From positions 30,091 to 94,090 of the IMG/VR virus record IMGVR_UViG_3300009502_000026: a DNA stretch of 64,000 bases; one strand, 5' to 3'. Shown in pieces: positions 4,172-53,078 of the stretch. Position 1 is the first letter of the stretch. Every line of letters begins with the position of its first letter. Below the pieces are notes generated by a model, which worked only from the letters and a program-made list of their open reading frames with translations, had not been told where the DNA came from and ran no database searches. Position numbers and translations under genes: made by a program. Source of the DNA: a virus.

Positions 4172-4212
4172 CGAATATAGCACAGAAAACGATAGTGTTT
4201 GTCTGGTGGGGA

Positions 4213-4701
4213 TTAGCTCGTCACGATGGTGTAAAGATCTTCCAAACTCACGATGATCTTCTCCCCATCAGCATCCACCTCGATAGTCTCCTCTCCTCCG
4301 AGACATTGATCTCGGAGGAGCAACCGGAGTTTCCCCACCATGTCCAGCATTGCCATGGAGAACGGTGGGACAATCGTGGTGCCTGAGACCACGACTGCCC
4401 ACTCCTGAACAACTTGCTGTGTCTGTGCCCCAGCGAACTCCTGGAAGGTCCACCTGATCCTGTAGTCCCCAGCCGTAGCTGAGACAGGGATCTGGAGGGA
4501 GGCATAGTACTCCCCTACCGTGGGATGGAGGGGTGCCCTGGTTGCACTCCCAATGAGTACCTCCAGGTGGGACACAGGGTCTACATAGTAGATCGCATAC
4601 GTGATGCTGAAGGCATCCGATGGGTTACCCTGTGAGTTGGTAAGGAAGATGTCTAGGTCTCCCCTACCAAGTGTCTGATTTGGTGTGAATACAACACCCA
4701 T
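4213..4701 (-). CDS. N-terminal half of structural protein fused to split intein N-part (IntN)
   Basis: A 162-aa product. Residues 1-132 are the N-extein, a beta-rich phage structural domain (FTPNQTLGRGDLDIFLTNS, ITYAIYYVDP, VGEYYASL, YRIRWTF) ending in KLRLLLRDQ. Residues 133-162 are a very short IntN: Cys133 followed by LGGEETIEV and IIVSLEDLY, a block-A pattern (C-L-x-G-x-T-x-x-E...-DLY). Atypical split inteins with IntN of about 25-30 residues, such as AceL-TerL, begin in the same way. Joining the exteins gives ...LLLRDQ|SPDKFYRF..., a continuous 317-aa protein of a family I recall as a single uninterrupted chain in related large phages. A stop codon follows the IntN directly. Confidence 0.82.
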   Translation of the reverse strand: MGVVFTPNQTLGRGDLDIFLTNSQGNPSDAFSITYAIYYVDPVSHLEVLIGSATRAPLHPTVGEYYASLQIPVSATAGDYRIRWTFQEFAGAQTQQVVQEWAVVVSGTTIVPPFSMAMLDMVGKLRLLLRDQCLGGEETIEVDADGEKIIVSLEDLYTIVTS

Positions 4702-37108: not shown

Positions 37109-39868
37109 CTAAGATGTCGATTTCTCTCTCAGTGCCAAGAGTTTCGCCATCCTAACCAGAACTGTTGCCTCTTGGGTTGTGGGCTCTCGGCCCATCGTGA
37201 ACTCACAAGCCTGGAGGAAAGTAGTCAGGGACCGGAACCCGGTAGGAGACCCTACCATCCCTGCCACCTTGTACAGGTCACTAGCGATCTTGATACCCTG
37301 CGAATTGTTCAGGGCTTCTAGCTTGAAGATGAAGTCATTGTCAGAGCTTGCAGTTCTAACAAGTTTCTGAACCGTAGCCTTGTATTGGGCTACCTTGGGG
37401 GTACTTCCAGTGATCAGAGTTGCTTGGGGAACCAACTTAGGAGTATGCCCCACTACCTTCACACTAGCCTGACTCACCAAGGTATCGTTGGGGGCATCAG
37501 AAGAAGGAGCCGCAGGGTTAGTATTCCCATAGGGGGCAGACCCCCCATTCATGGCATCCTGGACTCTCTTCTTGACCCTATCCAGCATCTTCCCGTAAAG
37601 CTCATCTTCCATGTCCTTCAGAGGATCAGGCTTGGCTTCAGGGGCAGGTTCCGTAGCAGGAGCATCAACTCCCTCATCCTCAAACTCCTGTGCTACACAG
37701 GAGCTTGCTGCCTTAGCTAGACCCTCTGGGAGATTAGAGAAGTCATTCTTGGGCAAGGTCTTCGGGATACTGAACATTTTCTTCCCACTAGGAGAGAAAG
37801 CTGAATCCCCTACCACCTTGACAGGACCACGAGCTACGGCACCTGTAAAGGCTGGGATCTTCACCCAAGATCCTTCCACAAAGACCACACCCCCTGTTGC
37901 ATCCTCTGTCTCATGTCCACAGAGTTCCGCAATCTGATGCCTCTGCCCCATCTCATCAAAGAATATATTGCCCTTCAGGTGACGGATGCAGTTACAGAAC
38001 TCCGTCTCATCTGAAGCCCAATTCCCACACTTTGTACATGTCGTACTCTGTGTAGTGCAACCCATAGATAGGGAATCAAGAGCACCGGATTCAATGTCCT
38101 GGATGAGTTGAACATGCTTACGGTCATTAGCTACCAGGATGTCCACGTACACAGAGGGGCCAATGTCCCTGGCTACAGCATCAATGATCCGACCCTTGGA
38201 GAGCTCCTCAATCTGAACGTGCTCCACGAAACTGTGAGCACCGATCAAAGTAGGGTAGGACTTCAGGAGTACCGGACGAGACCACGCATCAGAGTTATGA
38301 ACAGCGATCCCCCCTGCGATATAGGAATTGTCCTCTTCTACCTCAAGGTTATGGACCTTGCCCTGGTACTCCACAACCTCTACAGATTCTACGATCTGGA
38401 GGCAGTAGCCATTCAAGAACCGGAGATCAGGTACCTTCTGGACCTCACCATGGGATTCCAGAAATGCAGCATAGGCACCCTCATATTTGGTACCTTCCAG
38501 TAGATCATTCAGATAACCAGCCCCGCAGGATAGAGTCCACCCCTGGGTCTCTTTGGTGGGGTCTGAAACCACAATCGGTTTACCGTCCACTACCAATCGT
38601 TTACGGCCCTCCAGGACAGCAAAGGTCCACTGGGGGGCCACCCCCAACCTATGGAGGATCAAACGTACTTGGTTGATCAGGGATACACTTGCGGAACTAC
38701 CCGTCAAGCGGGCATCCCCAATCTTGGAAGTAAAAAAACTCCCATCCCCCTCAAACCACCCCTTGACTACCTCTTCCTGTACCTGATGTGAGGCACGGAG
38801 GAGATCCTCATGCAAACTCTTGGTCTTTGACCCATCGCCCAACACCCAACGAGAGAAGAACTCCACCAGGGGCCTATTGGTCTTGGTCGTGACCACAATC
38901 CCCTTATCAGTCTGATGATACCTGATAGTGCTGTCTGCCCCAAACTCTGACTTGAGGAGAGAACATACAGTTTTCGCTAATGTATTCTCCTCACTCAGGT
39001 TGAAGGCAAAGCACACCCCTACCCTCTCATTGTCCTTACGGGAGTCCAGTTCATAGTAGCCTTCCGCAAGAAAGAGCCCGAGAAGCCTAGCTTGGCCCGG
39101 TGTCAACCCCACAGAGACATCCCCATCCAGGATGGGTGTGGCTACAAAATCCCAATGATCCCTCACCTGACCAACAGGTACGAATTCTCCCCTCTTCTCA
39201 GTCAGAAGATCACGTTTAGGGATTCGCTTGCTGTAATAGCAAGCCCCACTACAGTAGAATCTGTCCAGAAGGTGGGAAATACACTTGCTGGCATGGTGGA
39301 TATTGGACCCGCACTGAATACAGGCTTCCTGGGGGCGGAACACGAAGAATGGGTGTTCCCGGGTTACATATAGTCTCTCGTTACACCCACGGTACTTCAA
39401 CCCCAGAAGTGCCCCATCAACCTGATGGCTATAGGTCTGGAGAACTTTACGTGCCCTTCCTGTATGAGTCAGAACCTCATCCCCCACCTGTACCTGCTCA
39501 ATGGGCTTAACCGTCCCATCTGACATTGTAATGGATGTGCCAGGAATGAAGCAGTTATTGTTGATCCATTTTTCGCAGTCAGCTTTGACCCGGAAGTCAG
39601 CATACTTCCGGTTGATCTTCTGACCATCAAACTGAATCATGCCCAGCTTGGTACCGGGAGTAGCAACCGTATCTACCGAAGCTACCAGAGTTGCGTGAGT
39701 GAGAAGGTACTTGGAAGGGTCAAATGACTCCCCAAGAATATCAGAAGCTTGCTTCACCAAGTCCCTGTCCAACCGGGTAGACCCGGATGCTACACGGACA
39801 TCATCCCATACTCCATCCCGGAGCTTGGGAACGGTGACCAGAGCTCTTGCAGTTCTTAGGAAGGCCAT
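37109..39868 (-). CDS. prohead maturation protease, interrupted by an intein
   Basis: 919 aa, of which residues 106-525 are an intein. The 499-residue host protein shows a prohead protease core: GAHSFVEHVQIEELSKGRII (His550 is the probable catalytic His), DILVANDRKHVQLIQ and ESGALDSLSMGC (Ser601 the probable nucleophile), a pattern like T4 gp21-type proteases. It is followed by a zinc-ribbon segment (CTKCGNWASD, FCNCIRHLKG). The C-terminal third is charged, with a helical end (ALNNSQGIKIASDLYKVAG). It cleaves scaffold and head proteins during maturation. GGGGTAAGTCC precedes the ATG. Confidence 0.85.
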   Translation of the reverse strand: MAFLRTARALVTVPKLRDGVWDDVRVASGSTRLDRDLVKQASDILGESFDPSKYLLTHATLVASVDTVATPGTKLGMIQFDGQKINRKYADFRVKADCEKWINNNCFIPGTSITMSDGTVKPIEQVQVGDEVLTHTGRARKVLQTYSHQVDGALLGLKYRGCNERLYVTREHPFFVFRPQEACIQCGSNIHHASKCISHLLDRFYCSGACYYSKRIPKRDLLTEKRGEFVPVGQVRDHWDFVATPILDGDVSVGLTPGQARLLGLFLAEGYYELDSRKDNERVGVCFAFNLSEENTLAKTVCSLLKSEFGADSTIRYHQTDKGIVVTTKTNRPLVEFFSRWVLGDGSKTKSLHEDLLRASHQVQEEVVKGWFEGDGSFFTSKIGDARLTGSSASVSLINQVRLILHRLGVAPQWTFAVLEGRKRLVVDGKPIVVSDPTKETQGWTLSCGAGYLNDLLEGTKYEGAYAAFLESHGEVQKVPDLRFLNGYCLQIVESVEVVEYQGKVHNLEVEEDNSYIAGGIAVHNSDAWSRPVLLKSYPTLIGAHSFVEHVQIEELSKGRIIDAVARDIGPSVYVDILVANDRKHVQLIQDIESGALDSLSMGCTTQSTTCTKCGNWASDETEFCNCIRHLKGNIFFDEMGQRHQIAELCGHETEDATGGVVFVEGSWVKIPAFTGAVARGPVKVVGDSAFSPSGKKMFSIPKTLPKNDFSNLPEGLAKAASSCVAQEFEDEGVDAPATEPAPEAKPDPLKDMEDELYGKMLDRVKKRVQDAMNGGSAPYGNTNPAAPSSDAPNDTLVSQASVKVVGHTPKLVPQATLITGSTPKVAQYKATVQKLVRTASSDNDFIFKLEALNNSQGIKIASDLYKVAGMVGSPTGFRSLTTFLQACEFTMGREPTTQEATVLVRMAKLLALREKSTS
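38294..39553 (-). mobile_element. intein with LAGLIDADG endonuclease (protease gene)
   Basis: 420 residues, from Cys (after WINNN) to Asn (VHN before SDAW). Block A is CFIPGTSITMSDGTVKPIEQ; the end is GKVHNLEVEEDNSYIAGGIA followed by VHN. LLGLFLAEGYY and VVKGWFEGDGSF are the two LAGLIDADG-type motifs, both with the catalytic acid (Glu, Asp), so the endonuclease looks intact. It is inserted upstream of the catalytic core. Confidence 0.9.
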
Positions 39869-39872
39869 GGAC

Positions 39873-40418
39873 TTACCCCAAGATCAGTTCAGACGGACGT
39901 ATAAGGAATAGGCAAGTAGGGCAACACAGGAGCCTCTCACTCTTGCCGTTCTGCCTTGTGTACACCGTCTTCCGAAGGATGGGCTTTTCCTGGCACCGGG
40001 GGCAGAAGAAACCCTCGGCTTCAGATTCGTCTCTAGTAGCCCGGTACCTACGGTCTGGGGCACCCCAGTAGAGTGCTCGGACGTGCCTGGAAGCTACCTT
40101 CTGGACTGACTCCCGGAGAGGAATCGGATACGGACCCCCTGGAACAGACACAGAGGTCCGGTTTCCCGGCACACTGTCCACTAGGCTGTCCACATAGGGG
40201 TCTGTATCGTTGGGGTCTACCTGAAGGTCTTCCACTGGCATTCGAGAGGCCCCGTGGGGGAACTGGACATCCACCATCCCAATGGCAGGGAACACAGCTA
40301 CAACTGTGCCCCCTTGGGCAAAGTTACCACCAATGGTAGGAGCTACACGGTCCCCTACATGGAACCCAGTAGCCCTAGCCTGATAGTCCACATAGGATGT
40401 TGCAGTACGATCTTGCAC
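39873..40418 (-). CDS. virion-type protein with zinc ribbon
   Basis: 181 aa, GTG start. Residues ~18-70 include GFHVGDRVAPTIGGNFAQGG, then TVVAVFPAIGMVDVQFP, which reads like a small SH3-like barrel. VQKVASRHVRALYWG follows, then a four-cysteine ribbon: FFCPRCQEK with LLCCPTCLFLI ~30 residues later. Overlaps nothing but lies 4 bp upstream of the protease gene, so likely co-translated. A nucleic-acid-binding head protein is plausible. Confidence 0.65.
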   Translation of the reverse strand: MQDRTATSYVDYQARATGFHVGDRVAPTIGGNFAQGGTVVAVFPAIGMVDVQFPHGASRMPVEDLQVDPNDTDPYVDSLVDSVPGNRTSVSVPGGPYPIPLRESVQKVASRHVRALYWGAPDRRYRATRDESEAEGFFCPRCQEKPILRKTVYTRQNGKSERLLCCPTCLFLIRPSELILG

Positions 40419-40450
40419 GGGAGCCTCATTCTGACTGAACAGACGGAGAG

Positions 40451-41068
40451 CTACTCGTCTAGGTCGTACTCTGCGTCGTCATCGGTCTCGGACTTCTTGC
40501 TGGCTTCCTTCTTCTCTTCGGGCTCAGGCTTGGGCTCTTCCTTGTCCTCGCCTGCCTTCTTGCCAGCATCCTTCTTGTCCTCGGCCTTGTCTTCCTTCTT
40601 GTTCTCGGCCTTGTCTGCCTTATCATCATCCTTCTTCAGCCAAGGGGGAAGTTCTCCCGCAGACTTGCCGCCCAGGAGAGTTGCAAGCTTGGCCGCAACA
40701 ACAACGAGTTCCTTGGCCGTCTTGGCAACCTGAGTGCCATCTACGGGAGGATCAGCTACACCATCACTGAGCTTGCCTGCTTCCTGCTTGGCAAGAAGCT
40801 GCTCCTTCTCTACCTGGGTGAAGTGACCGTTCATAAACGGCTCATCTGCATCCTTGACCTGGGGGCCCGGAACGACCTTGCCGATAGTGCTGGGATCAAA
40901 CCCTGCAACCTTGGCAATTCTGTCTGCCAGGAGGTCACACCGATAGGAGAAGTCCTTGGCTACCTTCTCAGGGATGCCGAGACGTTCATGGTGCTTTTCC
41001 AGAGTTGTAGCTAGCTTGTCAAGATCGTTCGTGACCCGACGTACTGCGTTTGCTGTAACCTTCTTCAT
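40451..41068 (-). CDS. small charged virion-type protein
   Basis: 205 aa from ATG 41068, which has GGAGAGG at good spacing (a GTG at 41095 is less likely). The N-terminal ~120 residues are helical (RRVTNDLDKLATTLEKHHER, YRCDLLADRIAKVAG). Then comes ELVVVAAKLATLLGG and a C-terminal Lys/Glu/Asp-rich tail of ~65 residues ending YDLDE. The charged tail is like those of scaffold or internal proteins. Its leader has two hairpins at 41093-41122. Confidence 0.62.
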   Translation of the reverse strand: MKKVTANAVRRVTNDLDKLATTLEKHHERLGIPEKVAKDFSYRCDLLADRIAKVAGFDPSTIGKVVPGPQVKDADEPFMNGHFTQVEKEQLLAKQEAGKLSDGVADPPVDGTQVAKTAKELVVVAAKLATLLGGKSAGELPPWLKKDDDKADKAENKKEDKAEDKKDAGKKAGEDKEEPKPEPEEKKEASKKSETDDDAEYDLDE

Positions 41069-41092
41069 GGTTTTCCTCTCCAGGACTTGGAA

Positions 41093-41122
41093 CACCCACA
41101 GGGGTGATATTCGCTACTAGCG
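41093..41122 (-). promoter_or_regulatory. two leader hairpins before 40451-41068
   Basis: CACCC-CTGT-GGGTG (41093-41106) and CGCTA-G-TAGCG (41112-41122, palindromic) lie in the 77-bp gap after the 1345-aa gene. TACTATATTCT a little further upstream is A/T-rich and could be a -10 region, but no good -35 fits. Confidence 0.35.
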
Positions 41123-41145
41123 TGTAGAATATAGTAAGTCTAACG

Positions 41146-44100
41146 TCACCAATCAGCTAACTCCGGTTCCGTAGAAAGGCTGAAAGCATCCTCATCGTCC
41201 TCATAATCCCCTTCTACTAACCCATGCACAAGGGATCGAGCCATATTAGGTTCTTCATACCCATCCTTCTCTATAGCCCTGTTGATGGCTCTGATCCTCT
41301 CCAACTCAAAAAGGTCATTGTCCTCTTTCGTAGGAACCTCACCCTTCTTGAGCTTTTCAAGACGCTCCTCATACTTCTTCTGGTAATCAGGGTCCTTATT
41401 CAGAATATCACTTTGCTCCGCTGCTACTTCTTCCGGTGTTTTCTTTGCTCTCTCTTTCTTAGGAGTCATGCTCTTCACAGCCGCAGAGAGAACACCTGCA
41501 TCATTCATCCAAGCATTCCAGAACATTGACCGAACACTGAGTTGCTGTTCAGGATTCAGAGTACCAGACCTAAACATCTTCAAAAGCTTATTGTATGGGT
41601 GATTCCCTTTTCCTGAATAAGAACCTTCAATGATAGCAGCTAGAGTGTCATCATCAATACCACCATCCTCACCTAGGTCTCTTAGAAACTCCCTGCTTGG
41701 GCCTACCCCTGCATTGATGATATCAGTGCCGCTATCCAGAATTTCCCTCCCAAACTCACCACCCATACCCTCATTTTTACCATCCCCATGAAGGGTGCGA
41801 ACCAATGCAATTGTATTTTGTGATGGGGCAGGCAGTTCACGGATGTCAGGTTGATTCTCTCCAGCTATGATCGAAGCTAAGTATACATCTCCTAAATGTG
41901 CCTTCAATTTCTGTATCTGTTCTTGTGCCTTGGGGTCATCTTGGTCCAATTTGGAGATGCCACTCCTAATACTTTCAATGGCTTTAGTCCTGATCTTCTT
42001 ACCTTCTTCAGGACTCTTCCCATCCTTACCGTGAATCATGTCACGGAAGTTTCTACTCCTGGGAGTCTTGACCGTCGGGCCCTTCCACTTCTTATCCGCA
42101 CCTTTTGGCTTAGAATCTTCCGGGAAAGCCTGATCGGACTTGGGCTTCTCTCCCTTGGGCTTCTCCCCTTCAGATTTCTCAGGCTCCTTCGGTGCTTCAC
42201 CCTCTGTAGGTGCCTTCGGCTCCTCTCCAGGAGTCCCTGTAGCTGGAGTTTTCCCCTTGGGAGTCCCAGGCTCGGGTTCTGGCTTAGGCTTAGGCTTAGG
42301 TTCTGTCTCTGTCGGAGGAGTCTCAGACTTGGGTTCTGGCTTAGGTTCCGGCTTAGGCTCGGGTTCTGGCTCTGGCTCCTTCTTAGGTGCCTTCCCCTTG
42401 TGAGCCTTCTCTGCCTTCAGTCTAGCCTTCTCAGCATTCTTAAGCTCCTTCTCCATACCTTGGAGGTCATCAGTTGAGTCACTGAGAGTGTAAGCATCCT
42501 CAGTGAATTCCTCCATAGTCACTGGTGGGTCCAAGCTATCAACAAGGACTTTGACTTCAGCTTCTATCTTTGCTCGTTTCTTTGGGTCGGAGGTTTCAAT
42601 AAACCTCTCAGCTACATCAGCAAGATCACTCTTGATGCTCTTGTACTTACTTTCGAGTATGTTTACCTTGTCTTGGAGGGTCTTATGATTGCCCTGGAGT
42701 TCCTCTACTTTCTTGGTAGCCTTTTCCAGAACTGACCCAGTATCTTCATCATCTTCACTAGCATCCCCACTACCCGTGGCGAATGCCTTAGCTTCATCCT
42801 TGGAGTCAAAGGTCTTGGCTGTGCCCTCAGAGTTGATACCCCTCCAGTTCTTCTCCTCAGTCTGCCAATAGTCACCAGACTTATGCTCAGGGGCATCTTT
42901 GATACCCACTACTTTTGGGGGAGGGGATACTTCCCCAAGTTTTACCAAGAACTTATGTGCCACCCTCTTGAAATTCAGAGTCAAGTCTGGGTCGGTCTCA
43001 GCAGACTGCCCCCCAAGGTCACCATCTCGATCAGGGTCTACTCGATGATCCCGTAGGTCTTGCCGAGGGGGCTTCTTCTTAGGATCAGGTTTGATGAGGT
43101 CTTTCGCTGCCTCATCTTCACGTTCCCCATCACTCTTAGTGGCAACTCTAAAGACTGCATCTGCATCTGACAGGTAACCCCCGTCAATGAGGGACCTGTA
43201 CAAGGCTTTCAGCATCAGAGCCTTGTTTCTCTCTGTCAGATAGGGACTAACATCCTTCCAAGTGTCATTAGTGAGAAGAATGTACCTGATGAACTCCTGA
43301 CCCTTGAAGTGATCTGCAAATTTGGGAGCCATCTCCAATGCCTTATCCACAAATTCCTGCATATATGCACGAACTTCATGGGGGTCATTGTAGTATTTCT
43401 CTGGGTCAATGTTCCTGGGAACTTCCCGGGTAGTAGCCCTGTTCTTCTGTTGTATATCCAGAACGTGGGTCATCTCATGTAAGAGCATCTGTCGGAAGTC
43501 CCTAGCCATGAACTCGACCGACTCCCGAAGTGCCTTCGTTGTGTACCTCCCATTCAGGTTCAAGACGATAGCTGGACGGGAACCCATTGACCCCTTGCCC
43601 CCCGATAGAAGGAGTTGTGGACTGTCACTCACAACGCTGGTGACCCTGAGTACTGGAACCAGGATGTTCTTCCCCTCAACCCCTAGGGCATCTGAGAATC
43701 TGTCCAGGTCTTTCTGAAGTACAGCATGATTGGGTGCCAACTGGCCGAGGGGCTCATCCTGGGGATGACGCCTTCCCAATTCTCGCTTCAAGTCCACGAT
43801 CAAATCCTGGACTTCGGCATCAATGAGACTCTTGTCAATCGGGATGGGCCTGGAAGCGATCTTGAACGACTTAGGGACTGCCCCATCCTTCAGATAAGTG
43901 TCTTCCATACCGGGCACTAGATACTGGGACCTGAGCGTAGCAGGCTCATGTCCTACAACCTCTGCCGTCTCTTTTAGTGCCTTCAGGAACTCATCCTTCA
44001 GGAGCTTCTTACGTTCCTTGGGATCAGTGGGTAGAGCCTTACCATTCTTCCGTGCCTCACCAAGCTTCTGACGCATGGTATCATTGGCATGGAACCCACG

Positions 44101-45183
44101 GATGTCCTTGGCAGTAATATCAAATGGCTTCAGGTAGGAGTTGACATGCTCTGCCGTTAGGTCAAAGTCTTCAACCTGAAGAACCTTGTCATTCGGCTTC
44201 TTGCCCTCAGTGTACTCCTTCAGGAGTTTGACAACTGCCCCAGTGTCTACTGTCTTTTCATGCTTGACACCGGATTTCCCCACGTATTTGATAACAGCCT
44301 TTCCCTTGGGGAAAGTGACATGTTTCACTTTCCAGCCTGTGACTCCAAAATGACCCTCACTAGCTGACTCATCATTTCCGATTCTCTCACAAGTTTCATC
44401 CATGAGAGCTACAGCGAGAGCCGTGAGCTTGGTCTCCTCACTACCAGAACTCAGGTCTTTACGCACCTTGGCACGAACTTCGGAGATGCCCTTACGAAGC
44501 TTCTCCACCTGTTCAGCCTTCTCCTTGTTCCTCTTTGCTACCTGCCTAGGGCCGTATTCATAGTGGACGTTCCCCTCGGAGTCCTTCTTCTTGTCTATGT
44601 ACTTGCCCCACTTGTCCAGGAACAGACCCGCAATCTTCACTGGGGACGCTATCCTTGGGGTCCACAACTGGGAGGCTACTCGACCTTCGGGAGTAGTATG
44701 AAGTTTCACTCTTGGGATGATATCCGGGAAACCCCAGATTTCCATCTCATCAAAACTCCAAGAACCACCCGGTACTTCTCCCTTGTATTCCTCAGTCAAC
44801 CCTGTGAGGTACTCCAGAGTGACATGGGGACGGTAGATCAGAGGGAAACTATCAACCACTTCAAAGTTTGCATCAAGGAGTGCCTGACGGAGATTCCACT
44901 TAAGGGCAGAAAGATCCTTGTCCATCTGGACAAGATCAACAGCTACTCTTCTTTCCTTATCAGGATTGACAAAGTACTCCATTCCTATCAGCGTAGCTGT
45001 GACAGGTCCACGGAACTGCGTGAACGTAGCCTGAACGATCTTCAGGAACTCAGTCCTACGTCCGACCGGAATCTCCCCTACATACAGAAAGGTGACATGA
45101 GGGGGAGAATCGTCCTCTTCTCCAAGGGGAGGGAACCTGGAAGCCATCTCATCCGGGAGAGGTATGAATAGTCCAACACCCAT
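41146..45183 (-). CDS. 1345-aa multidomain protein: 2H phosphoesterase + topoisomerase IB + HExTH zincin + charged tail
   Basis: Residues 1-160 are a 2H phosphoesterase (PHVTFLY at 28-34 and RPHVTLEY at 118-125, two H-x-T motifs). Residues ~183-435 are a poxvirus-type topoisomerase IB with all five catalytic residues: Arg267 (ERIGND), Lys303 (YVGKSG), Arg362 (KDIRGF), His412 (VVGHEPATL) and Tyr421 (RSQYLVPG); His to Tyr is 9 residues, as in vaccinia. Residues ~450-660 contain LLHEMTHVLD (His569, Glu570, His573), a zincin. After ~680 the chain is Lys/Glu/Pro-rich and helical. RVAS, RIAS, KIAS and RVAT tetrapeptides lie at the domain borders. It is probably packed in the virion or a morphogenesis polyprotein; delivery is inferred. 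Confidence 0.82.
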   Translation of the reverse strand: MGVGLFIPLPDEMASRFPPLGEEDDSPPHVTFLYVGEIPVGRRTEFLKIVQATFTQFRGPVTATLIGMEYFVNPDKERRVAVDLVQMDKDLSALKWNLRQALLDANFEVVDSFPLIYRPHVTLEYLTGLTEEYKGEVPGGSWSFDEMEIWGFPDIIPRVKLHTTPEGRVASQLWTPRIASPVKIAGLFLDKWGKYIDKKKDSEGNVHYEYGPRQVAKRNKEKAEQVEKLRKGISEVRAKVRKDLSSGSEETKLTALAVALMDETCERIGNDESASEGHFGVTGWKVKHVTFPKGKAVIKYVGKSGVKHEKTVDTGAVVKLLKEYTEGKKPNDKVLQVEDFDLTAEHVNSYLKPFDITAKDIRGFHANDTMRQKLGEARKNGKALPTDPKERKKLLKDEFLKALKETAEVVGHEPATLRSQYLVPGMEDTYLKDGAVPKSFKIASRPIPIDKSLIDAEVQDLIVDLKRELGRRHPQDEPLGQLAPNHAVLQKDLDRFSDALGVEGKNILVPVLRVTSVVSDSPQLLLSGGKGSMGSRPAIVLNLNGRYTTKALRESVEFMARDFRQMLLHEMTHVLDIQQKNRATTREVPRNIDPEKYYNDPHEVRAYMQEFVDKALEMAPKFADHFKGQEFIRYILLTNDTWKDVSPYLTERNKALMLKALYRSLIDGGYLSDADAVFRVATKSDGEREDEAAKDLIKPDPKKKPPRQDLRDHRVDPDRDGDLGGQSAETDPDLTLNFKRVAHKFLVKLGEVSPPPKVVGIKDAPEHKSGDYWQTEEKNWRGINSEGTAKTFDSKDEAKAFATGSGDASEDDEDTGSVLEKATKKVEELQGNHKTLQDKVNILESKYKSIKSDLADVAERFIETSDPKKRAKIEAEVKVLVDSLDPPVTMEEFTEDAYTLSDSTDDLQGMEKELKNAEKARLKAEKAHKGKAPKKEPEPEPEPKPEPKPEPKSETPPTETEPKPKPKPEPEPGTPKGKTPATGTPGEEPKAPTEGEAPKEPEKSEGEKPKGEKPKSDQAFPEDSKPKGADKKWKGPTVKTPRSRNFRDMIHGKDGKSPEEGKKIRTKAIESIRSGISKLDQDDPKAQEQIQKLKAHLGDVYLASIIAGENQPDIRELPAPSQNTIALVRTLHGDGKNEGMGGEFGREILDSGTDIINAGVGPSREFLRDLGEDGGIDDDTLAAIIEGSYSGKGNHPYNKLLKMFRSGTLNPEQQLSVRSMFWNAWMNDAGVLSAAVKSMTPKKERAKKTPEEVAAEQSDILNKDPDYQKKYEERLEKLKKGEVPTKEDNDLFELERIRAINRAIEKDGYEEPNMARSLVHGLVEGDYEDDEDAFSLSTEPELADW

Positions 45184-45184
45184 T

Positions 45185-46114
45185 TTAACCCCCTACCGGG
45201 TCTGATGGAGATGATAGGCAATACCCATTTTCATCTACATCACAAAGCTCGATACCATCATCTTCAGTGGCATCCACCCAAACCATGTGGACAACATTTT
45301 GAACCACGGCATCCAGGTCAATGAAGTCATGGTCCGGTTCTGGACCAGAGTCATACATAGAGATGAAAGCAAACTGTGTCCGTTGATCTTCCGGGAGTCC
45401 CCGTTCTGCCACAGGAACATTCCAGTCCTCAAACTCAGGGATAGCCTTCAGGCTGGTATCTACCAGGGAGTAAAGTTCCCTTCGGTCGTTGAACCAGAGA
45501 ATCTCCTGCCTACCTATTGTCTCTGCCTTGGGACGGAGAATATCTGAAAGCTTCTGGATTACAACTTCCAGGTTCTCTGGGAAGTCATAGGGAGACTGAC
45601 GAATACCCCACAAAGCTACGGCTCCTGTGATATGATTCAGGAACACCATAACCTTTTCCCGCTCGGCCTTGGCTACCCGTGCCATGTGGGCATCTGCCAC
45701 AAGGCTAGCCAAGGTGAGCTTCATAGATCCGACCTTCAACCCCGCTGCGGGTGATCCCTCCAGGAATACCATTGGGAGCAAGCCCTTCCTGAAGAGTCTC
45801 ACTCGTTGAGCAATGTACCTGGGGGACCTCATCCCCACTTCCCACTTGATCCCTAAGTTCCTGATAGCCTCTGCCAACGGGAAAATGGTCTTCCATTTCC
45901 CTGTCTTGTCCAGGGAATTCCCTTCCTCAATGAAGGCTTCGATAGTGATAAAATGCTTACGAATACAGTCCCTACAGTGCTTTCCAGGGTCATTCAGGTG
46001 GTCCTCCAAGAGAACCATCTGTTTGCAAGCTTCCCTGAAACAGAACTCAGGATTGTGTATCGGCAGAAGAGCCGGTAAGTTGGTTGGGTCGAGGATACAG
46101 GAATGTTTCCGCAT
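45185..46114 (-). CDS. Cys-containing virion-type protein
   Basis: 309 aa. Residues ~20-70 contain FCFREACKQMVLLEDHLNDP followed by GKHCRDCIRKHFITIEAFIE, a CxxC-type cluster with a conserved helical look I recall from other large phages (CKQxxLLEDHL...RCxDCIRKHLL). The rest is helical, then polar with an acidic end. It is one base upstream of the 1345-aa gene and follows the portal. Its leader has a hairpin near the ribosome site. Function unknown. Confidence 0.65.
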   Translation of the reverse strand: MRKHSCILDPTNLPALLPIHNPEFCFREACKQMVLLEDHLNDPGKHCRDCIRKHFITIEAFIEEGNSLDKTGKWKTIFPLAEAIRNLGIKWEVGMRSPRYIAQRVRLFRKGLLPMVFLEGSPAAGLKVGSMKLTLASLVADAHMARVAKAEREKVMVFLNHITGAVALWGIRQSPYDFPENLEVVIQKLSDILRPKAETIGRQEILWFNDRRELYSLVDTSLKAIPEFEDWNVPVAERGLPEDQRTQFAFISMYDSGPEPDHDFIDLDAVVQNVVHMVWVDATEDDGIELCDVDENGYCLSSPSDPVGG

Positions 46115-46119
46115 TTGGA

Positions 46120-46133
46120 AGTCCTAACGGACT
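46120..46133 (-). promoter_or_regulatory. hairpin overlapping the ribosome site of 45185-46114
   Basis: AGTCC-GTTA-GGACT on the minus strand, 5-bp stem with 4-nt loop, ending 5 nt before the ATG. The likely Shine-Dalgarno AGGACT is the 3-prime arm, as in the 24123-24143 case. Confidence 0.45.
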
Positions 46134-46155
46134 GGTGGGATAGGGAGACTACCTG

Positions 46156-49100
46156 CTACCCGAATCTTCCACCACCCTCATCAGGCTTCTTGTACTTGAG
46201 CTTCAAGTACTCAGCGATCCTCTCCACTACATCAGAATTCTCGGCAAGGTTCCTACCGGCTTCAGTGTAGATACCCCGGAGAACTTCATTGAACGTGGAG
46301 TCATTCAGGGTAAACACATCCCGCATGAGCTTCTCGTTCGTAGCCGTGGGGTCAATGTTCAGGAGTTCCAGGATGATATCAATATCCAGAGAACCCTTCT
46401 GATAGAGGTTGAACAAAGCATCGAAGGTATCAGCATTGTCCCGAAGGGCAAGACGGGTGAAGGTAAGGGTTGGGACAACCACTTCTTCATTCCCATCCTC
46501 ATCGAGCTCAATGAACCCCATGCGCTTACACATGGGAGCCAGCATGTTCTGTTCAACCATCTCCTGGAGGATTTCCCGCAGAAGCATGAACCGGGTGTTG
46601 ATAACCTCCAGATTGATCCTGTCACCGGAGTAGCTGGACTCCCCAGACAAGAGAGATTCAGTGACCCCCAGACCGGCATACAACTGCCTATCTGTCTGGT
46701 CATACTCAGTCGAGAGTTCCAGGAGACGCTGACTAGACCCCATCTCCTCCCAATTGACCTGGAAGTTGGTGATGATGGAGTAGTCCGGGTCCATCAGGGC
46801 CATATCCACCTGATCCCGGAGGTTCTCTACATCTGCCACATCCATATCTTCGGCATAGACCAGCCGAATAGGAGTCATGTGGCGAGAAGCAATCTGTGTC
46901 TGGGACTGACGGAGCTTATCCCGATAGACCAGGGTACGAATGCAGTTATGGACTACGATCCCACCGGCTACTAGAGTCTCATCATCCTCTACATCAAAGG
47001 AATAGACCGGACCCTGATAGTGGAACCGTTCCACTTTATCAAGGGTATGTGTTGTCCAACGGTCATCCTTCTTGAAGTACCCAAGTCTGATCTTCTCTTT
47101 GTAGCCCTGAAGGTAGGGCTTCGTGGCACTTGACCACACAGAGAAACTAGACATCCGGGCCATTGTAATAGGTGAATGAGTACGGAGCACATAAGTAGTG
47201 AAAGCCCCGTAGGAATAGGTCTTGTCCCTAACACGGGATACCCTAGGGTGTGCTTTGGGGAACTTTGCACGCCCCCCTATAGGCTTCCCCCCCACTACCT
47301 TCTTCACCTTACGGGAACTCTTACGGCTCTTCCACCGATCTACCGAAAGGTTCAGTCTCTTACACACCAGATACAACTGCGAAGTCAAAATTGCATCATG
47401 GAGATGAAGCTCCATAAGCTTCTTCCCAATGGTTTCTACCCTACCGCTACTGTCAAGAATACCCCCCAAAAGTGCCAGAAGGTACTTCTCTCGGACCCCA
47501 AACATCCAGTCAGGAAGTATCTTGGACTTACCATACTGGAAGTGTTCGTGAATCCAACGAGCCAGTAGGGCATCCGGCAACTTGAGAGTAGTGTGTGCCC
47601 CAGAGTCTTCAATCTCTATGGACTCTTCCCCAAAGACATTCTGGAGAGCTTCCTTGAGCTTGAGGACACAATGGGAGTGCTTCTTGTCTATCCACCACTC
47701 AGTTACATACTGGGCTGGTGAAGAATAGGTGGGGAGTTTCACCTTCCCCTTAGCTACCCATGCACCCAGGATGTAGCAGAGGTCTTCGGTCATCTTGAAG
47801 GAGACAGTATGAGGGGCAACTGCATGTCCCCAGGCAAAGGCACCAGGAGCCGGTAGGAACTCAGGATAGGCAAGGCCCCCTGGGGAAGCCCTGCACATCG
47901 AGTTCTCCCAATGGTCTGCTAGATCGAACCGGAGGGGCACCTTACGGTCATGTGTACGGATATGACTCTCCCGTACCTTGTCCCCAGCCTTGATGTCCCC
48001 AGCCAGGACTTCTTCTTCCTGACCCTCTGCGTTGATCCTTATGATCTTGTGATCTTTGGTGAAGCAGATAGGGTCACGGAGAGAGATAGAATGGATTGTG
48101 ATACCCACAACCTCTTCATCTACATTCCGAGTGCCCTTAGAAGCTTTACGAAAGCGACCTTTCCCTGTCAGGAGAAGATCAGTGTTCACATCCACTTGCT
48201 CAACCGGGATATTGACAACCAAACCCTGCCGATTGACCGTGATAGGTGTTCCAGGAAGAATACAGCGTTCCAGGACCGAATGGCCCCTGGGCTCATACTG
48301 TGACTTCTTCCTTGCCATGTAAAACACAAAACTCCCGGATTCGGGGTCTGTGTTCAGAGGAATGTTTTCCCCTTTCCGAATGGAATCCACAACCATTGAG
48401 GGCATGGAATCCACGATCCGTTGGGCCTGGGGGTCTCCAGCTTCGGCCTTGTGGATGATGTCTTTGGTCTTGCTATCAGGAACCAGTTCAATGAGTTTCT
48501 GGTCAGTGAAAGGATAGCTCTCCATGTGAATCTGTTCCGGGGGCAACACCCGAATTGCAGACCAACCATGGTAGTTTCTCTTCAACCACTTGACCGCACG
48601 CTCATTGGCATCCTGTCGATCTTGCCACTCTTCCGCAACACTTCCGTCTTCCTGAAGTACCCTGAATATCTCCTGAGTGATATCCTGGGGCATGTCTTCA
48701 GAAGCATCCTCACAGAAGATGAATACCTCACCCAACAGGTTGTAGTCATGGACGATTTCGATGAGACGATGAAGAAGTCCAATCTTCTTCGCCCACTTTG
48801 CACAAAAATTCAAGGATCTTTGTGCAATGTCACGATTCTTAGCCTTGGGCATACCAAGGCGAACCTTAGACAGAGGAAGTTCTGTCTGTAGGTCCAGAGC
48901 TTGGCCTACGAACGGATCAGCCCCGTAGAAGAACCGGAAATAGTTCCTCTTTTCATCGAGGGACTGAGGGAGTTCCAGGAAGTCTGTGGAGAGCTCAGGG
49001 CTGTAGAAATTGCCCCCAGAACCCTGGACAGAACCACTCACTGAAGGATAAGCCACCTTGGATCGAAGAAACCCTGTGGCAATCTTCGGGGGCTTCCCTA

Positions 49101-49176
49101 CCTTCACACCCTTCCGGGGAGGTACTTTCCCAACAGTTACCGCTTCAGTCTTATCAGTCTTATCAGCCATAGTCAC
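46156..49176 (-). CDS. portal protein, interrupted by an intein
   Basis: 1006 aa, of which residues 305-744 are an intein. The host protein (566 aa) has portal landmarks: YFRFFYGADPFVGQALDLQT near residue 85, LIEIVHDYNLLGEVFIFCED near 140-156, GWSAIRVLPPEQIHMESYPF near 205, and after the intein IRTLVYRDKLRQSQTQIASR, TNFQVNWEEMG, QLYAGLGVTESLLSGESSYS and INTRFMLLREILQEMVEQNM. The portal forms the ring through which DNA enters and leaves. KIATGFLRSKVAYPS near residue 35 is a basic N-terminus of the RVAS/KIAT type. Upstream of the protease and downstream of TerL, as expected. Confidence 0.88.
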   Translation of the reverse strand: MTMADKTDKTEAVTVGKVPPRKGVKVGKPPKIATGFLRSKVAYPSVSGSVQGSGGNFYSPELSTDFLELPQSLDEKRNYFRFFYGADPFVGQALDLQTELPLSKVRLGMPKAKNRDIAQRSLNFCAKWAKKIGLLHRLIEIVHDYNLLGEVFIFCEDASEDMPQDITQEIFRVLQEDGSVAEEWQDRQDANERAVKWLKRNYHGWSAIRVLPPEQIHMESYPFTDQKLIELVPDSKTKDIIHKAEAGDPQAQRIVDSMPSMVVDSIRKGENIPLNTDPESGSFVFYMARKKSQYEPRGHSVLERCILPGTPITVNRQGLVVNIPVEQVDVNTDLLLTGKGRFRKASKGTRNVDEEVVGITIHSISLRDPICFTKDHKIIRINAEGQEEEVLAGDIKAGDKVRESHIRTHDRKVPLRFDLADHWENSMCRASPGGLAYPEFLPAPGAFAWGHAVAPHTVSFKMTEDLCYILGAWVAKGKVKLPTYSSPAQYVTEWWIDKKHSHCVLKLKEALQNVFGEESIEIEDSGAHTTLKLPDALLARWIHEHFQYGKSKILPDWMFGVREKYLLALLGGILDSSGRVETIGKKLMELHLHDAILTSQLYLVCKRLNLSVDRWKSRKSSRKVKKVVGGKPIGGRAKFPKAHPRVSRVRDKTYSYGAFTTYVLRTHSPITMARMSSFSVWSSATKPYLQGYKEKIRLGYFKKDDRWTTHTLDKVERFHYQGPVYSFDVEDDETLVAGGIVVHNCIRTLVYRDKLRQSQTQIASRHMTPIRLVYAEDMDVADVENLRDQVDMALMDPDYSIITNFQVNWEEMGSSQRLLELSTEYDQTDRQLYAGLGVTESLLSGESSYSGDRINLEVINTRFMLLREILQEMVEQNMLAPMCKRMGFIELDEDGNEEVVVPTLTFTRLALRDNADTFDALFNLYQKGSLDIDIILELLNIDPTATNEKLMRDVFTLNDSTFNEVLRGIYTEAGRNLAENSDVVERIAEYLKLKYKKPDEGGGRFG
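46945..48264 (-). mobile_element. intein with degenerate LAGLIDADG motifs (portal gene)
   Basis: 440 residues, from Cys305 (after VLER) to Asn744 (VVHN before CIRTL). Block A is CILPGTPITVNRQGLVVNIP; the end is VYSFDVEDDETLVAGGIVVH followed by N. The endonuclease motifs read LGAWVAKGK and LLGGILDSSG: the catalytic acids are replaced (Lys, Ser), so homing activity is probably lost while splicing residues remain. Confidence 0.9.
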
Positions 49177-49197
49177 CTAGTCATTCTTAGCAATCAG

Positions 49198-49518
49198 TTA
49201 TTCATCTTCGGACTCAGTGACTACGGGAGGGGCTTTAGGCTTTGGCTCCCTTCTAACAGGTGGGGGTGCGTTTGGGTTGAGGTCCGGGTCTTCAGTATCA
49301 TAAGGTGCCGCAACCCTACCCACACCTTGCAGACTACCCAGGGTCCGTTCAAGAGACCTCCTGACCATCAGAGCCCTACGCCCAGAAGGATCTCCAGGGG
49401 TAGGTCCGGGAGGCACTATCCGAATAGCTTGTCGGAGAGCTTGCTCGGCTTTGGACATACAGACAGAAATTTCTCTATCTGCATCTGACCGGGCAAGGGT
49501 AGCCCTTAACCTAGACAT
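49198..49518 (-). CDS. small protein between TerL and portal
   Basis: 106 aa. The N-terminal half is basic and helical (ATLARSDADREISVCMSKAE, QALRQAIRIVP, MVRRSLERTLGSLQG); the C-terminal half is Pro- and Glu-rich (NPNAPPPVRREPKPK, TESEDE). No known fold. Its place between portal and terminase genes suggests a head-assembly helper, but there is no direct evidence. The unusually short gaps on both sides favour coupled translation. Confidence 0.6.
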   Translation of the reverse strand: MSRLRATLARSDADREISVCMSKAEQALRQAIRIVPPGPTPGDPSGRRALMVRRSLERTLGSLQGVGRVAAPYDTEDPDLNPNAPPPVRREPKPKAPPVVTESEDE

Positions 49519-49527
49519 AACTTCACC

Positions 49528-49788
49528 TTACCACCGTAGAGATGGGGTCAGATGTCCATATTTGATGGCAATAGTAATGATCTTCTTGAGAAGAAGGATG
49601 TCCTCAATAGAACCTTCAAAGACCCCTTCCCACGATCCCCCAGCCTTGACAAAGACCCGTGATACCTTGTCATACTCAGTAGGAATATGAACCACCTTGT
49701 TTGGATGGACAGATTCAAGGATCTTACGGATGATCCTATGATCAGACCTGACAGGACTGGTGGGAGTGAGGCTTGCTGTGCGATTCAT
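49528..49788 (-). CDS. small unknown protein overlapping TerL stop
   Basis: 86 aa. TSPVRSDHRIIRKILESVHP begins the sequence, and the C-terminal part SIEDILLLKKIITIAIKYGH is helical. Its start overlaps the TerL stop by 4 bases (ATGA-type coupling). Small genes here often encode head-completion or terminase partners. No fold recognised. Confidence 0.58.
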   Translation of the reverse strand: MNRTASLTPTSPVRSDHRIIRKILESVHPNKVVHIPTEYDKVSRVFVKAGGSWEGVFEGSIEDILLLKKIITIAIKYGHLTPSLRW

Positions 49789-52700
49789 CTTCCACGCTTC
49801 CTACCTGCCAAGCCACCCGTACCCCCCATTCCAGACCAGCCACTCCTACCACTAGGGACACCCATTGCAGGAAGTCCACGGGGAGCCATTCGAGACTCAT
49901 GGCTCCCACTAGCAAGAATTCGTTTCCGAGCCTTCATTGCACCAGAGGGGGTACGGGGCACCTGACCATTGTCCATGAACCGAGAGGTTCCTCCTGCATG
50001 TGTGATATAGGATGGTTTTCCAAGTACGTTGGATGCAGCCCACACCATTCTAATCAGAGCATCAGAACGGTCATCATGCTTCCCCTCCATATTGGGGGCT
50101 TCCACCGTAACTACATACTTACTATGATACTCTGCCTGAAGCTCCATGAGTTCCACAATGTAATCACAATGGTTGGCACCATCAGGAATCGGAAAATCAT
50201 ACATGACCAGCTTATGGTCATACATCATGTCCTTGAAGTTCTGGAACATCTGGGACGTGAGTATCTTTGTCATCTGTGTAGCCTTCATCTGCCGAAGGCC
50301 ACGCTTGGCAAGTGCCTGTTCCAGGGGGATACCTGCCCACTGGTCAAAGATACCTTCATGGATCAGGAACTTCTTGGACAGTTCTGCAATCCAGTCAGCT
50401 ACAGCATCGAAGTCCAGCCGCTCGACGTTGATGTACTTACCTTCTCCAGCCTTGATCTGGTCTACAAGATCGACTATGATCTTTCTCTCAGCGAGGTCAA
50501 TGTGTCCAAGTGCAATTGCCGTCGCATCACCCGACAGACCCAAGTCCAATCCAAGGAAGTAGGATTGCCTGGGAACCCCGTAATACTTCGGGCGAGCCCC
50601 AGGGTCCACGCAATCCATCAGGTCCTTGTCACGCTCAATCCAACCACGGGTCCTGTCAGTGAACTCCCCCCCGTACTCAGTGAAGAACACTGAAGGGTCT
50701 TTCAGGTAGTGCTTTTCAAACTCCTCGGCAGGAATCGTAGGATTGACTTCCCAAGTTGGTGCCTGGATGCACACCATGTTCTTGGAAGCCTTGCCACCCT
50801 TCATCCCAATCTGAAATAGCTTGTAGAAAAGACCTTGCTTTCCTAGGGGAGATGAAATCGAGATGATCCGGCCCTCTACTGGACCAATAGGAACTCTCTT
50901 GTCACTAGCCTTCTTGGGAGAGAAAGCTGAAGTAGACGGGGTAACCGCATTGTAAACGGACTCTGCGGAAGACTGCCCTTTGTCTGTGAAGTGGGCAATC
51001 TCGTCCAGAATCACGACTAGGTTACCGGCACCACGAAGACCCTTGGCTACACAGGATCGGAAGGTGACCTTAACCGAGGCCCTTGCATTAGGATTCTCAA
51101 TATACCTACCGTACTTTTCAATGTCCTTGGGTGTCTGGAAACGAGCATAGGACATGGTATTGTTGGCTGTATAAGGTACGAAGAACTCACACCCCCTGAA
51201 ATGCCCTGAAGTTTCCTGATAGAGAAGTCCTGCCTGATCCTTGTCCGTAGCAACCGAGATGATCTGGATAGGGTTGCTGGAAGGTAGCCCGTAGTATTGA
51301 TGTGGGTCACTCTTCAGGATCAACTTGTAAGTCTCATAAGCTGCGATAATGGCACCTATGGCCGTATTGTGGTTGGTCATCCCCCCAGCTACAAAACTCT
51401 CCCCTTCTGGGACGGTCAGATCATATACCCTAGCCTCACCTGAATTTACGGTTTCTACGGGATCGTAGAAATAGTTGGCCGTCTGAAGTACCTCAAAATG
51501 ACGTATCACATCTGGGTCTGCCCCTAAACTCTGAGCCATTGCCAGTGTGGGGCCAAGCCTGGGGTATGTCATGGACTCCTTGGAACTCGGTTTGATGGTG
51601 TTCCCCAAAGCCGTCCGCAACAAACTACGATGCCAACCTGGACGTTTCCCATGCCCCCCACGGTTACAGGTCACAGATTGAAGTAGGGCATCACACCAGG
51701 ATCGTTGATGGGGAATGTTTTCAGCATCCGATCCTTCTTTGGAAGTCCTAGCCAAAGATGCCAACACTGGGTCATTTTTCTTGGACGACCTAAATCCAAT
51801 CTCGTCCATGAACTTCTGACGGGAGGCCGTACCTCTCACGTACACGTTGTAGTAGAATCGCTTGTACTTCTTATTCCACTTTGCCCGTCGAGTACTCACA
51901 ACCCCGAAGTTCAGGAGAAGTATTTGAACTTCCCGTGCAAGTTGCTCCGATGCCGAAGAGAACGATACAGCCAACCCCCCCTTCTCTGAGCAACCATCAG
52001 TCTCAAACAATCCCTGTAGGAACCTCTGCACAACAATCTTAGGGGACCTCATGATGGTCCACGGGACGTGCTTGGTATTCCTTGTAATATCCCATGCGAA
52101 CCCCAGCTTGTGTAGAAACTTCCTCACATGAGTGCTGAAGAAGTCAATGGAGCCAGTGTTGTTGGTCCGCTTGTCCATACGGACGTTGAAAGATCCGAAT
52201 AGACTGGTGTACAGCGCCTTCAGTTCCTCCCAGGTCTCTGGATGCTCTACAGTCACAGACACCGCATTGTGCTTCGTCCATGAACCACCCCCGACCAAGT
52301 ACCCCAGGAAAAGTCCCCATTCTTCAGTAAGCTCAGTTGGGAGAGTCACCCTGGGGTCTTCACATCCAGTATGGAGGGACTCCAACGGTACCCTCTGAAC
52401 AGGCCAAAGGTCAGATGTGCGATGAATAGCGATCTGGTCACCAAGATGGATATGGTCCAGGTATCTCCATTGGATGGTGCCACCTTCGGACATCACCCTA
52501 ACTCGGTGACCAGCGGTACCCTCAAGTTCATACCCACTACGGGTCACAAACTTGATTGTAGGTTTCACCCCTCCATTGTAGAAGAATGCAGAATCAGACC
52601 TGACACCATTCTCCTGGACCACACCAATTTCCAAAGGCTGGTACTCAGGACCCTTGGAATCTCCGAGGTCCTGAATGGGGATTATGCCCTGGTTGGTAAG

Positions 52701-53078
52701 AACCAGGGTATCCCCAACCACACATTTCCCAGAACGTCTCCCGATGGACAGGACGATCTCCCTACGTTCTACTCCAGGGATGACCTCCCGGATATTGCTC
52801 CTACCCTCCCGGTAGAGCATCTCCAGGTATTCAACCTCAGTATACTCAGTGAACTTTTCCCATCTCCAATCGTGGACAGTGAACCGATTGGCTGGGTCAT
52901 TATCAAGCTCAATCCCATAATGGGCTTTGAGGATGATCTTCTGTACTGGAAACAGCTTTAGGTTCAGCCCCCAGTCAGACTCAGTGAACTCAATGATGTT
53001 TGCTACTTGAGAAGTACTTTTCGTAATGTTTGCTGCGGCCCTAGCAGAGCCCAATGCAATCTCACCTAGATTACCCAT
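49785..53078 (-). CDS. terL: terminase large subunit, interrupted by an intein in the Walker A motif
   Basis: 1097 aa, of which residues 119-571 are an intein; spliced length 644. The ATPase P-loop SIGRRSGK is cut exactly after Lys118 and resumes at Thr (TAIGAIIAAYETYKL), so GRRSGKT is rebuilt only by splicing. Walker B is NLVVILDEIAHF. The RNase H-like nuclease is YFLGLDLGLSGDATAIALGH (first Asp) with a C-terminal HDDRSDALIRM acid. It packages DNA into proheads and cuts it. The C-terminal tail is Gly/Arg/Met-rich. It is the strongest phage hallmark here. Confidence 0.9.
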   Translation of the reverse strand: MGNLGEIALGSARAAANITKSTSQVANIIEFTESDWGLNLKLFPVQKIILKAHYGIELDNDPANRFTVHDWRWEKFTEYTEVEYLEMLYREGRSNIREVIPGVERREIVLSIGRRSGKCVVGDTLVLTNQGIIPIQDLGDSKGPEYQPLEIGVVQENGVRSDSAFFYNGGVKPTIKFVTRSGYELEGTAGHRVRVMSEGGTIQWRYLDHIHLGDQIAIHRTSDLWPVQRVPLESLHTGCEDPRVTLPTELTEEWGLFLGYLVGGGSWTKHNAVSVTVEHPETWEELKALYTSLFGSFNVRMDKRTNNTGSIDFFSTHVRKFLHKLGFAWDITRNTKHVPWTIMRSPKIVVQRFLQGLFETDGCSEKGGLAVSFSSASEQLAREVQILLLNFGVVSTRRAKWNKKYKRFYYNVYVRGTASRQKFMDEIGFRSSKKNDPVLASLARTSKEGSDAENIPHQRSWCDALLQSVTCNRGGHGKRPGWHRSLLRTALGNTIKPSSKESMTYPRLGPTLAMAQSLGADPDVIRHFEVLQTANYFYDPVETVNSGEARVYDLTVPEGESFVAGGMTNHNTAIGAIIAAYETYKLILKSDPHQYYGLPSSNPIQIISVATDKDQAGLLYQETSGHFRGCEFFVPYTANNTMSYARFQTPKDIEKYGRYIENPNARASVKVTFRSCVAKGLRGAGNLVVILDEIAHFTDKGQSSAESVYNAVTPSTSAFSPKKASDKRVPIGPVEGRIISISSPLGKQGLFYKLFQIGMKGGKASKNMVCIQAPTWEVNPTIPAEEFEKHYLKDPSVFFTEYGGEFTDRTRGWIERDKDLMDCVDPGARPKYYGVPRQSYFLGLDLGLSGDATAIALGHIDLAERKIIVDLVDQIKAGEGKYINVERLDFDAVADWIAELSKKFLIHEGIFDQWAGIPLEQALAKRGLRQMKATQMTKILTSQMFQNFKDMMYDHKLVMYDFPIPDGANHCDYIVELMELQAEYHSKYVVTVEAPNMEGKHDDRSDALIRMVWAASNVLGKPSYITHAGGTSRFMDNGQVPRTPSGAMKARKRILASGSHESRMAPRGLPAMGVPSGRSGWSGMGGTGGLAGRKRGR
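51366..52724 (-). mobile_element. intein with LAGLIDADG endonuclease (TerL gene)
   Basis: 453 residues, Cys119 (GRRSGK before it) to Asn571 (TNHN before TAIGA). Block A is CVVGDTLVLTNQGIIPIQDL; block B includes ELEGTAGHRVRVMSE; the end is YDLTVPEGESFVAGGMTNHN. Endonuclease motifs are LFLGYLVGGGSW (acid replaced by Gly) and RFLQGLFETDGCS (Asp kept): half decayed. Confidence 0.92.

Follow-up and report, generated by a model that had tools for sequence, protein, structure and literature searches.

Three inteins with unequally preserved homing endonucleases in neighbouring head genes of a large tailed phage

Among described inteins, the closest to those reported here include TliVMA and PhoVMA (PDB 7qss and 7qst): the TliVMA endonuclease has been solved and tested active, and the PhoVMA intein keeps its fold with both catalytic acids absent and is inactive (PMC8966425). 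Inteins are also known from phages. In mycobacteriophages, portal genes too are intein hosts, the elements are horizontally mobile, and two sites in the terminase large subunit (TerL) are listed one residue apart (PMC5050341). The crAss-like and Jug phages are large phages whose core genes, including TerL, carry several inteins and introns (PMC7886860; PMC12363816). Here we describe three inteins, in the head maturation protease, portal and TerL genes of a 64,000-nucleotide stretch of viral DNA (hereafter the window), which comprises positions 30091-94090 of the 94,090-base IMG/VR virus record IMGVR_UViG_3300009502_000026 and comes from one large tailed phage, a relative of the huge phages. 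We consider it very probable that the three were acquired independently, that the protease intein is probably still competent for homing, that the TerL intein has probably been disabled by a change in one codon, and that the portal intein is an endonuclease-dead relic.

Each of the three genes is a single open frame on the minus strand of the window, and each was named from its PHROGs matches. The original prediction had placed an intein in each gene, and comparison with exact empty alleles bore out both the positions and the lengths of 420, 440 and 453 amino acids (aa) for protease, portal and TerL, respectively. The genes, their inteins and the codons at the two catalytic positions of each endonuclease are listed below; slashes mark the splice junctions.

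37109-39868, minus strand: prohead/head maturation protease gene with its intein, 919-aa precursor (phrog_18299, head maturation protease, E 1.2e-7)
38294-39553, minus strand: protease intein, 420 aa, NNN/C1 ... HN/S+1, with LAGLIDADG_3 detected and a Cys-rich accessory segment (same-site intein in L047-L049 55% identical)
39062-39064, minus strand: protease intein acid 1, E164 (GAA), kept (conserved in L049)
38744-38746, minus strand: protease intein acid 2, D270 (GAT), kept (conserved in L049)
46156-49176, minus strand: portal gene with its intein, 1006-aa precursor (phrog_16240, portal, E 1.9e-29)
46945-48264, minus strand: portal intein, 440 aa, LER/C1 ... HN/C+1, with both acids lost and the relatives' accessory segment missing (relatives' alignments and structure models)
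47749-47751, minus strand: portal intein acid 1, lost, K172 (AAG) (Asp in L077, L082 and L034)
47446-47448, minus strand: portal intein acid 2, lost, S273 (AGC) (Asp in L077, L082 and L034)
49785-53078, minus strand: TerL gene with its intein, 1097-aa precursor (phrog_17415 and phrog_9, terminase large subunit)
51366-52724, minus strand: TerL intein, 453 aa, within the Walker A motif (GRRSGK/C1 ... HN/T+1), with one acid lost (full-length match to the TliVMA intein 7qss, E 2.7e-30)
52287-52289, minus strand: TerL intein acid 1, lost, G146 (GGT) (Asp in 11 of 11 aligned relatives)
51996-51998, minus strand: TerL intein acid 2, D243, kept (relatives' alignment)

We collected relatives at 43 viral loci with TerL and 44 with the portal gene, and scored only contigs having both extein halves. 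The TerL site was free of an intein in 35 of the 49 contigs scored, the portal site in 58 of 63 and the protease site in 30 of 33; in LR745208.1, a published 485-kb uncultured phage, all three sites are empty. Because these intein-free alleles join the extein halves with 0 bp between them, they prove the boundaries of all three inteins, and the insertion sites are established. Inteins at the same sites were found in 14 contigs for TerL, in two for portal (L077 and L082) and in three contigs of one phage for the protease (L047-L049). The portal intein alone as a query retrieved no relatives among the viral contigs scanned; its relatives were retrieved with the conserved portal extein as query.

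As predicted, the splice residues are intact in all three inteins. Each keeps those of class 1 cis-splicing, namely Cys1, the block B TxxH (T64-H67 in the protease intein, T69-H72 in the portal intein and T70-H73 in the TerL intein), the terminal His-Asn and a Ser, Cys or Thr at +1. From these motifs we infer that the precursors would self-splice post-translationally, by an N-to-S acyl shift at Cys1, transfer to the +1 residue and Asn cyclisation, and would yield normal head proteins. Purifying selection would be expected to keep splicing, since each host gene is essential.

The endonuclease domains have fared less evenly, and same-site relatives confirmed the predicted counts of two catalytic acids in the protease intein, one in the TerL intein and none in the portal intein. 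Both acids of the protease intein lie in recognisable LAGLIDADG motifs, FLAEG (E164) and EGDG (D270), and the same-site intein of L049 also has both; the protease intein is probably a still competent homing endonuclease. In the TerL intein D243 is kept, and motif 1 reads LVGGG, with G146 in place of Asp. All 11 aligned same-site relatives have both acids there, with GAT or GAC at the first position in the five relatives whose codon was read, and when the TerL family is aligned with TliVMA the block C Asp of the latter falls in the G146 column. Neither acid is present in the portal intein, where motif 1 is WVAKG (K172) and motif 2 is LDSSG (S273); L077, L082 and, ten codons off the site, L034 instead have MGDG or LGDG and DTDG, with both acids. 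In a profile alignment of the portal and protease inteins, K172 lies opposite E164 and S273 opposite D270.

A shift of the acids to nearby positions would have mimicked their loss. However, same-site relatives have Asp in the very columns of K172, S273 and G146. D271, which adjoins S273, is the counterpart of the first, non-catalytic D in DTDG, and there is no acid within about 7 residues of K172 or within 3 residues of G146; shifted acids are therefore ruled out, by the same-site alignments and by profile alignments with other intein families, and the acids are lost.

As a yardstick of conservation we took, for each intein, the columns in which the rest of its family shows no variation, and counted deviations from them. 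In the TerL endonuclease domain one of 26 such columns is changed, and it is the catalytic Asp itself; relatives deviate at 0-3. Broad decay of the TerL intein was rejected by this test. Because a single codon is changed in an otherwise conserved domain, loss in the TerL endonuclease is minimal and probably recent. The window's portal intein is changed at 32 of 66 invariant endonuclease columns, and its relatives in turn deviate at 4/38, 8/42 and 7/41 (pooled, 19/121; Fisher p = 2.7e-6 versus the window). It also lacks about 90 aa that lie between the Hint domain and motif 1 in L077, L082 and L034. In a model of the L077 intein (pLDDT 80.6) this segment is a compact unit of helices and strands with weak fold matches that include winged-helix regulators (E above 0.05), and these matches suggest that it may be a DNA-binding module. 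We infer that the segment was lost from the window's intein, rather than gained elsewhere, because all three other portal inteins have it.

PF14528 (LAGLIDADG_3) matches the TerL and protease inteins, and a search of the portal intein with it gave no match. The window portal model (mean pLDDT 74.6) superposes on I-DmoI (Z 18.1, rmsd 2.8 Å over 177 residues) and on TliVMA (Z 28.6), and the intein is predicted to keep the LAGLIDADG fold despite its lost acids. With the acids gone, the accessory segment missing and half of the invariant endonuclease columns changed, the portal intein is, by its sequence, truly decayed. What stands of the graded decay seen in the original prediction is unequal loss within one genome; the TerL intein is not a half-decayed intermediate.

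We noted two side features of the protease gene. Residues 75-112 of its intein (window 39218-39331), between the Hint and LAGLIDADG domains, form a conserved Cys-rich segment (C78, C81, C91, C101 and C105) that is possibly a zinc-binding accessory module. A second intein site, SMG/C, is filled in the phage that also includes L034 (L047-L049; L049:7533-8773) and in L088 (L088:18552-19807), and is empty in the window.

The three inteins had been read as successive stages of one element, and this did not hold up. The TerL intein profile matches the portal and protease inteins only in the LAGLIDADG endonuclease core, and the portal and protease profiles match each other over their full length, remotely. 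Each window intein is closer to its same-site kin in other phages (47-53% identity for the nearest TerL inteins, 55% for the protease and 32-34% for portal) than to the other two window inteins. This remote mutual kinship and the closer same-site kin argue for three acquisitions, and on these comparisons the protease, portal and TerL inteins are three separate lineages. It is extremely improbable that a single element multiplied within this genome and that its copies then decayed to unequal degrees: the shared Hint and LAGLIDADG architecture and the full-length match of portal and protease would fit such copying, but the core-only match of TerL does not, and neither does the finding that each intein has its nearer relatives at its own site in other phages.

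We then considered whether these inteins move. On a host tree of TerL plus portal, in which fragments missing the site were counted as unknown, the TerL intein shows at least 7 gains or losses across 45 scorable contigs. The TerL exteins of L005, which has the intein, and L006, which lacks it, are 91% identical. Over the aligned TerL region the DNA of L028 is 96-97% identical to that of L031, yet the Walker A site holds an intein in L028 and none in L031; at TerL residue 177, L028 has a 134-aa mini-intein (L028:2466-2867) and L031 an endonuclease-bearing intein of about 323 aa (L031:3653-4621). The inteins of L086 and L092 are 67% identical whereas their TerL exteins are only 52% identical, and inteins more alike than exteins indicate horizontal movement. 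Across the family as a whole, intein and extein distances for TerL are weakly correlated (Mantel r 0.13, with 136 of 2000 permutations as high); hence, the case for mobility in the clade is built on presence/absence and on individual contig pairs.

At each of the three sites, empty alleles outnumber filled ones. Because they are common at every site, clade-wide saturation of target sites is not behind the decay; the filling of all target sites, the usual cause of decay in the homing cycle, is not visible at clade level. The suggestion that one genome displays stages of the homing cycle is accordingly a fair picture of the states, not a time series. Of 27 large records, 21 have intein C-terminal signatures, with as many as 7 in one record. 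LR745208.1 has eight, LR756511.1 three and the 257-kb contig of L092 seven, several of them within very long open reading frames (ORFs); these three represent intein-rich huge phages. The clade as a whole, and not this genome in particular, is rich in inteins.

The portal gene offers a related case. The LER/C site is occupied in the window, L077 and L082, and in the L032-L034 phage the intein lies 10 codons (30 bp) downstream of it, after CIRTLVYKDK (YKDK/C). The L034 intein (L034:13444-15045) is a full-length homologue of the L077 and L082 inteins (38-40% identical) and shares their accessory segment, so that homologous inteins at two sites represent an apparent shift of insertion site. This is unusual, because inteins that occupy separate sites in the same protein have often diverged strongly (PMC2814812), and the pair provides a concrete case for how inteins change site. 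Among the portal sequences, we also observed that the L033 intein has its frame broken by a two-base deletion relative to L032 and L034 (a sequencing error or a real pseudogene), and that the N-terminal part of portal in L025, L026, L031 and L044 has additional or repeated segments, tens to about 200 bp long, with residues 157-167 matched twice in L044.

We propose that three bifunctional inteins, each a Hint splicing domain with a LAGLIDADG homing endonuclease, would have invaded the protease, portal and TerL genes independently, and that homing function was probably lost independently after invasion, hence the spread of states. In the TerL intein, double-strand cleavage was probably lost through the Asp to Gly change at residue 146, with the rest of the domain conserved. 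The portal intein would be an endonuclease-dead relic, without both acids and without the accessory segment (probably DNA-binding), that kept its LAGLIDADG fold and its splicing domain. The sequences themselves show the insertion sites, the empty alleles, the lost acids, the missing accessory segment and the mobility in the clade; splicing, the loss of nuclease activity and the order and cause of decay are our reconstruction.

Several observations weigh against this proposal. The Gly at residue 146 depends on a single codon, in a metagenome assembly that has no accompanying reads, and could be an assembly error or a minor variant, in which case the TerL intein would be intact, only the portal intein would be dead and there would be no three-state series. 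We consider this unlikely: Gly146 is indeed the sole change in 26 invariant columns and requires one transition (GGT versus GAT), but its codon sits in an otherwise undamaged frame of 1097 codons and nothing else pointed to an error. The portal splicing domain, too, has diverged more than those of the rest of its group (17/53 versus 20/128 columns, p = 0.016) and the difference in rate between the portal endonuclease and splicing domains is not significant (interaction z 1.3), so part of the endonuclease excess is general divergence. The ancestor of the portal intein may have lacked the accessory segment from the start. Finally, the samples are small, with only four portal inteins and only two protease inteins on hand.

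Other explanations concern what an intein with one acid or none still does. Such inteins might remain mobile, as nickases or with the help of another endonuclease of the same phage. D243 does leave TerL with one complete LAGLIDADG half-site, and activity could come in trans where a genome encodes several endonucleases; however, a shared target is unlikely because the three insertion-site peptides differ (GRRSGK/T, LER/C and NNN/S) and the inteins are of different lineages, and the portal intein is missing its accessory segment as well. We therefore regard continued mobility as very unlikely. It is also quite unlikely that endonuclease-dead inteins are retained for a benefit, with the LAGLIDADG scaffold aiding splicing or with splicing exapted as a switch that times head assembly or responds to stress during it. 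The LAGLIDADG fold has been reused in the transcription factor WhiA, which is also among the structure matches of the portal model. The full predicted fold of the acid-free portal intein (Z 18 to I-DmoI) would suit a retained function, and mutual dependence of splicing and endonuclease domains has been discussed (PMC8966425); against this, the extent of change in the portal endonuclease columns is what relaxed constraint predicts, and most relatives are without the intein, so that no benefit need be invoked. A broader form of this idea, in which head genes are a standing intein arena, dead inteins are kept because the timing of splicing would help to regulate head assembly (protease, portal and packaging motor together), and acid loss is domestication rather than decay, is very doubtful indeed. 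We therefore favour three independent invasions followed by separate losses of homing function.

The window contains a fourth intein, which is split, of another type and 33 kb from the head-gene inteins:

4216-4305, minus strand: split intein N-half, 30 aa (CLGGEETIEV...), fused to the N-extein (ORF 4213-4701) (same-site split intein in LR745208.1)
3398-4183, minus strand: free-standing TnsA/PD-(D/E)xK-like nuclease between the halves, 261-aa ORF (PF08722, E 3.4e-6)
3003-3404, minus strand: split intein C-half, about 134 aa, ending ...QNVLKN/S, fused to the C-extein (2445-3002) (contiguous gene in L051-L056)

The two halves thus lie on separate genes around a nuclease ORF, and L051-L056 have a contiguous, intein-free gene across the junction (LRLLLRDQ/NPDKYYRF in L051). 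LR745208.1 has the same split arrangement, with a homologous nuclease (355594-356526) between the halves. The original prediction counted four inteins in one morphogenesis region; the count is fair and the split intein at 2445-4701 is real, but its distance and type set it apart, and such a load is a property of the clade (up to 7-8 signatures per record). The window's C-half (at about 3003) ends VLKN/S, with no penultimate His, and the LR745208.1 counterpart ends GHN/C; splicing without this His may be slower or different. In gp41-type split inteins of fractured genes, a free-standing endonuclease lies between the halves, and the window locus shares their order of N-half, nuclease ORF and C-half. 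It differs in its very short N-half (30 aa), in a nuclease that is TnsA/PD-(D/E)xK-like by Pfam, and in a C-half ending Lys-Asn rather than His-Asn.

The kind of element described here is already known, and its value lies in the comparative series. The homing cycle is usually assembled from distant organisms. Here, one phage clade shows empty alleles, intact inteins, inactivation by a single codon, a decayed endonuclease and an endonuclease-free mini-intein. These states sit at defined sites in essential genes, some of them between contigs about 97% identical in DNA; hence, the rate and order of endonuclease loss become measurable.

TliVMA and PhoVMA are Hint plus LAGLIDADG inteins like those of the window; the alignment of the TerL intein family with TliVMA runs from end to end, and the state of PhoVMA is that of the portal intein. 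They are, however, archaeal V-ATPase inteins, whereas in the window the states stand side by side in three neighbouring phage head genes. The mycobacteriophage intein TerL1-a interrupts Walker A between its Lys and Thr, at precisely the position of the window's TerL intein (PMC5050341); those mycobacteriophages belong to a different phage group, and in the accessible part of that study no genome is described that combines inteins in the protease, portal and TerL genes. The crAss-like and Jug phages share with the window's clade a large size and intein-rich core genes that include TerL. The crAss-like Zeta phages are reported to have up to 3 inteins per genome, and records in the window's clade have up to 7-8 intein C-terminal signatures.

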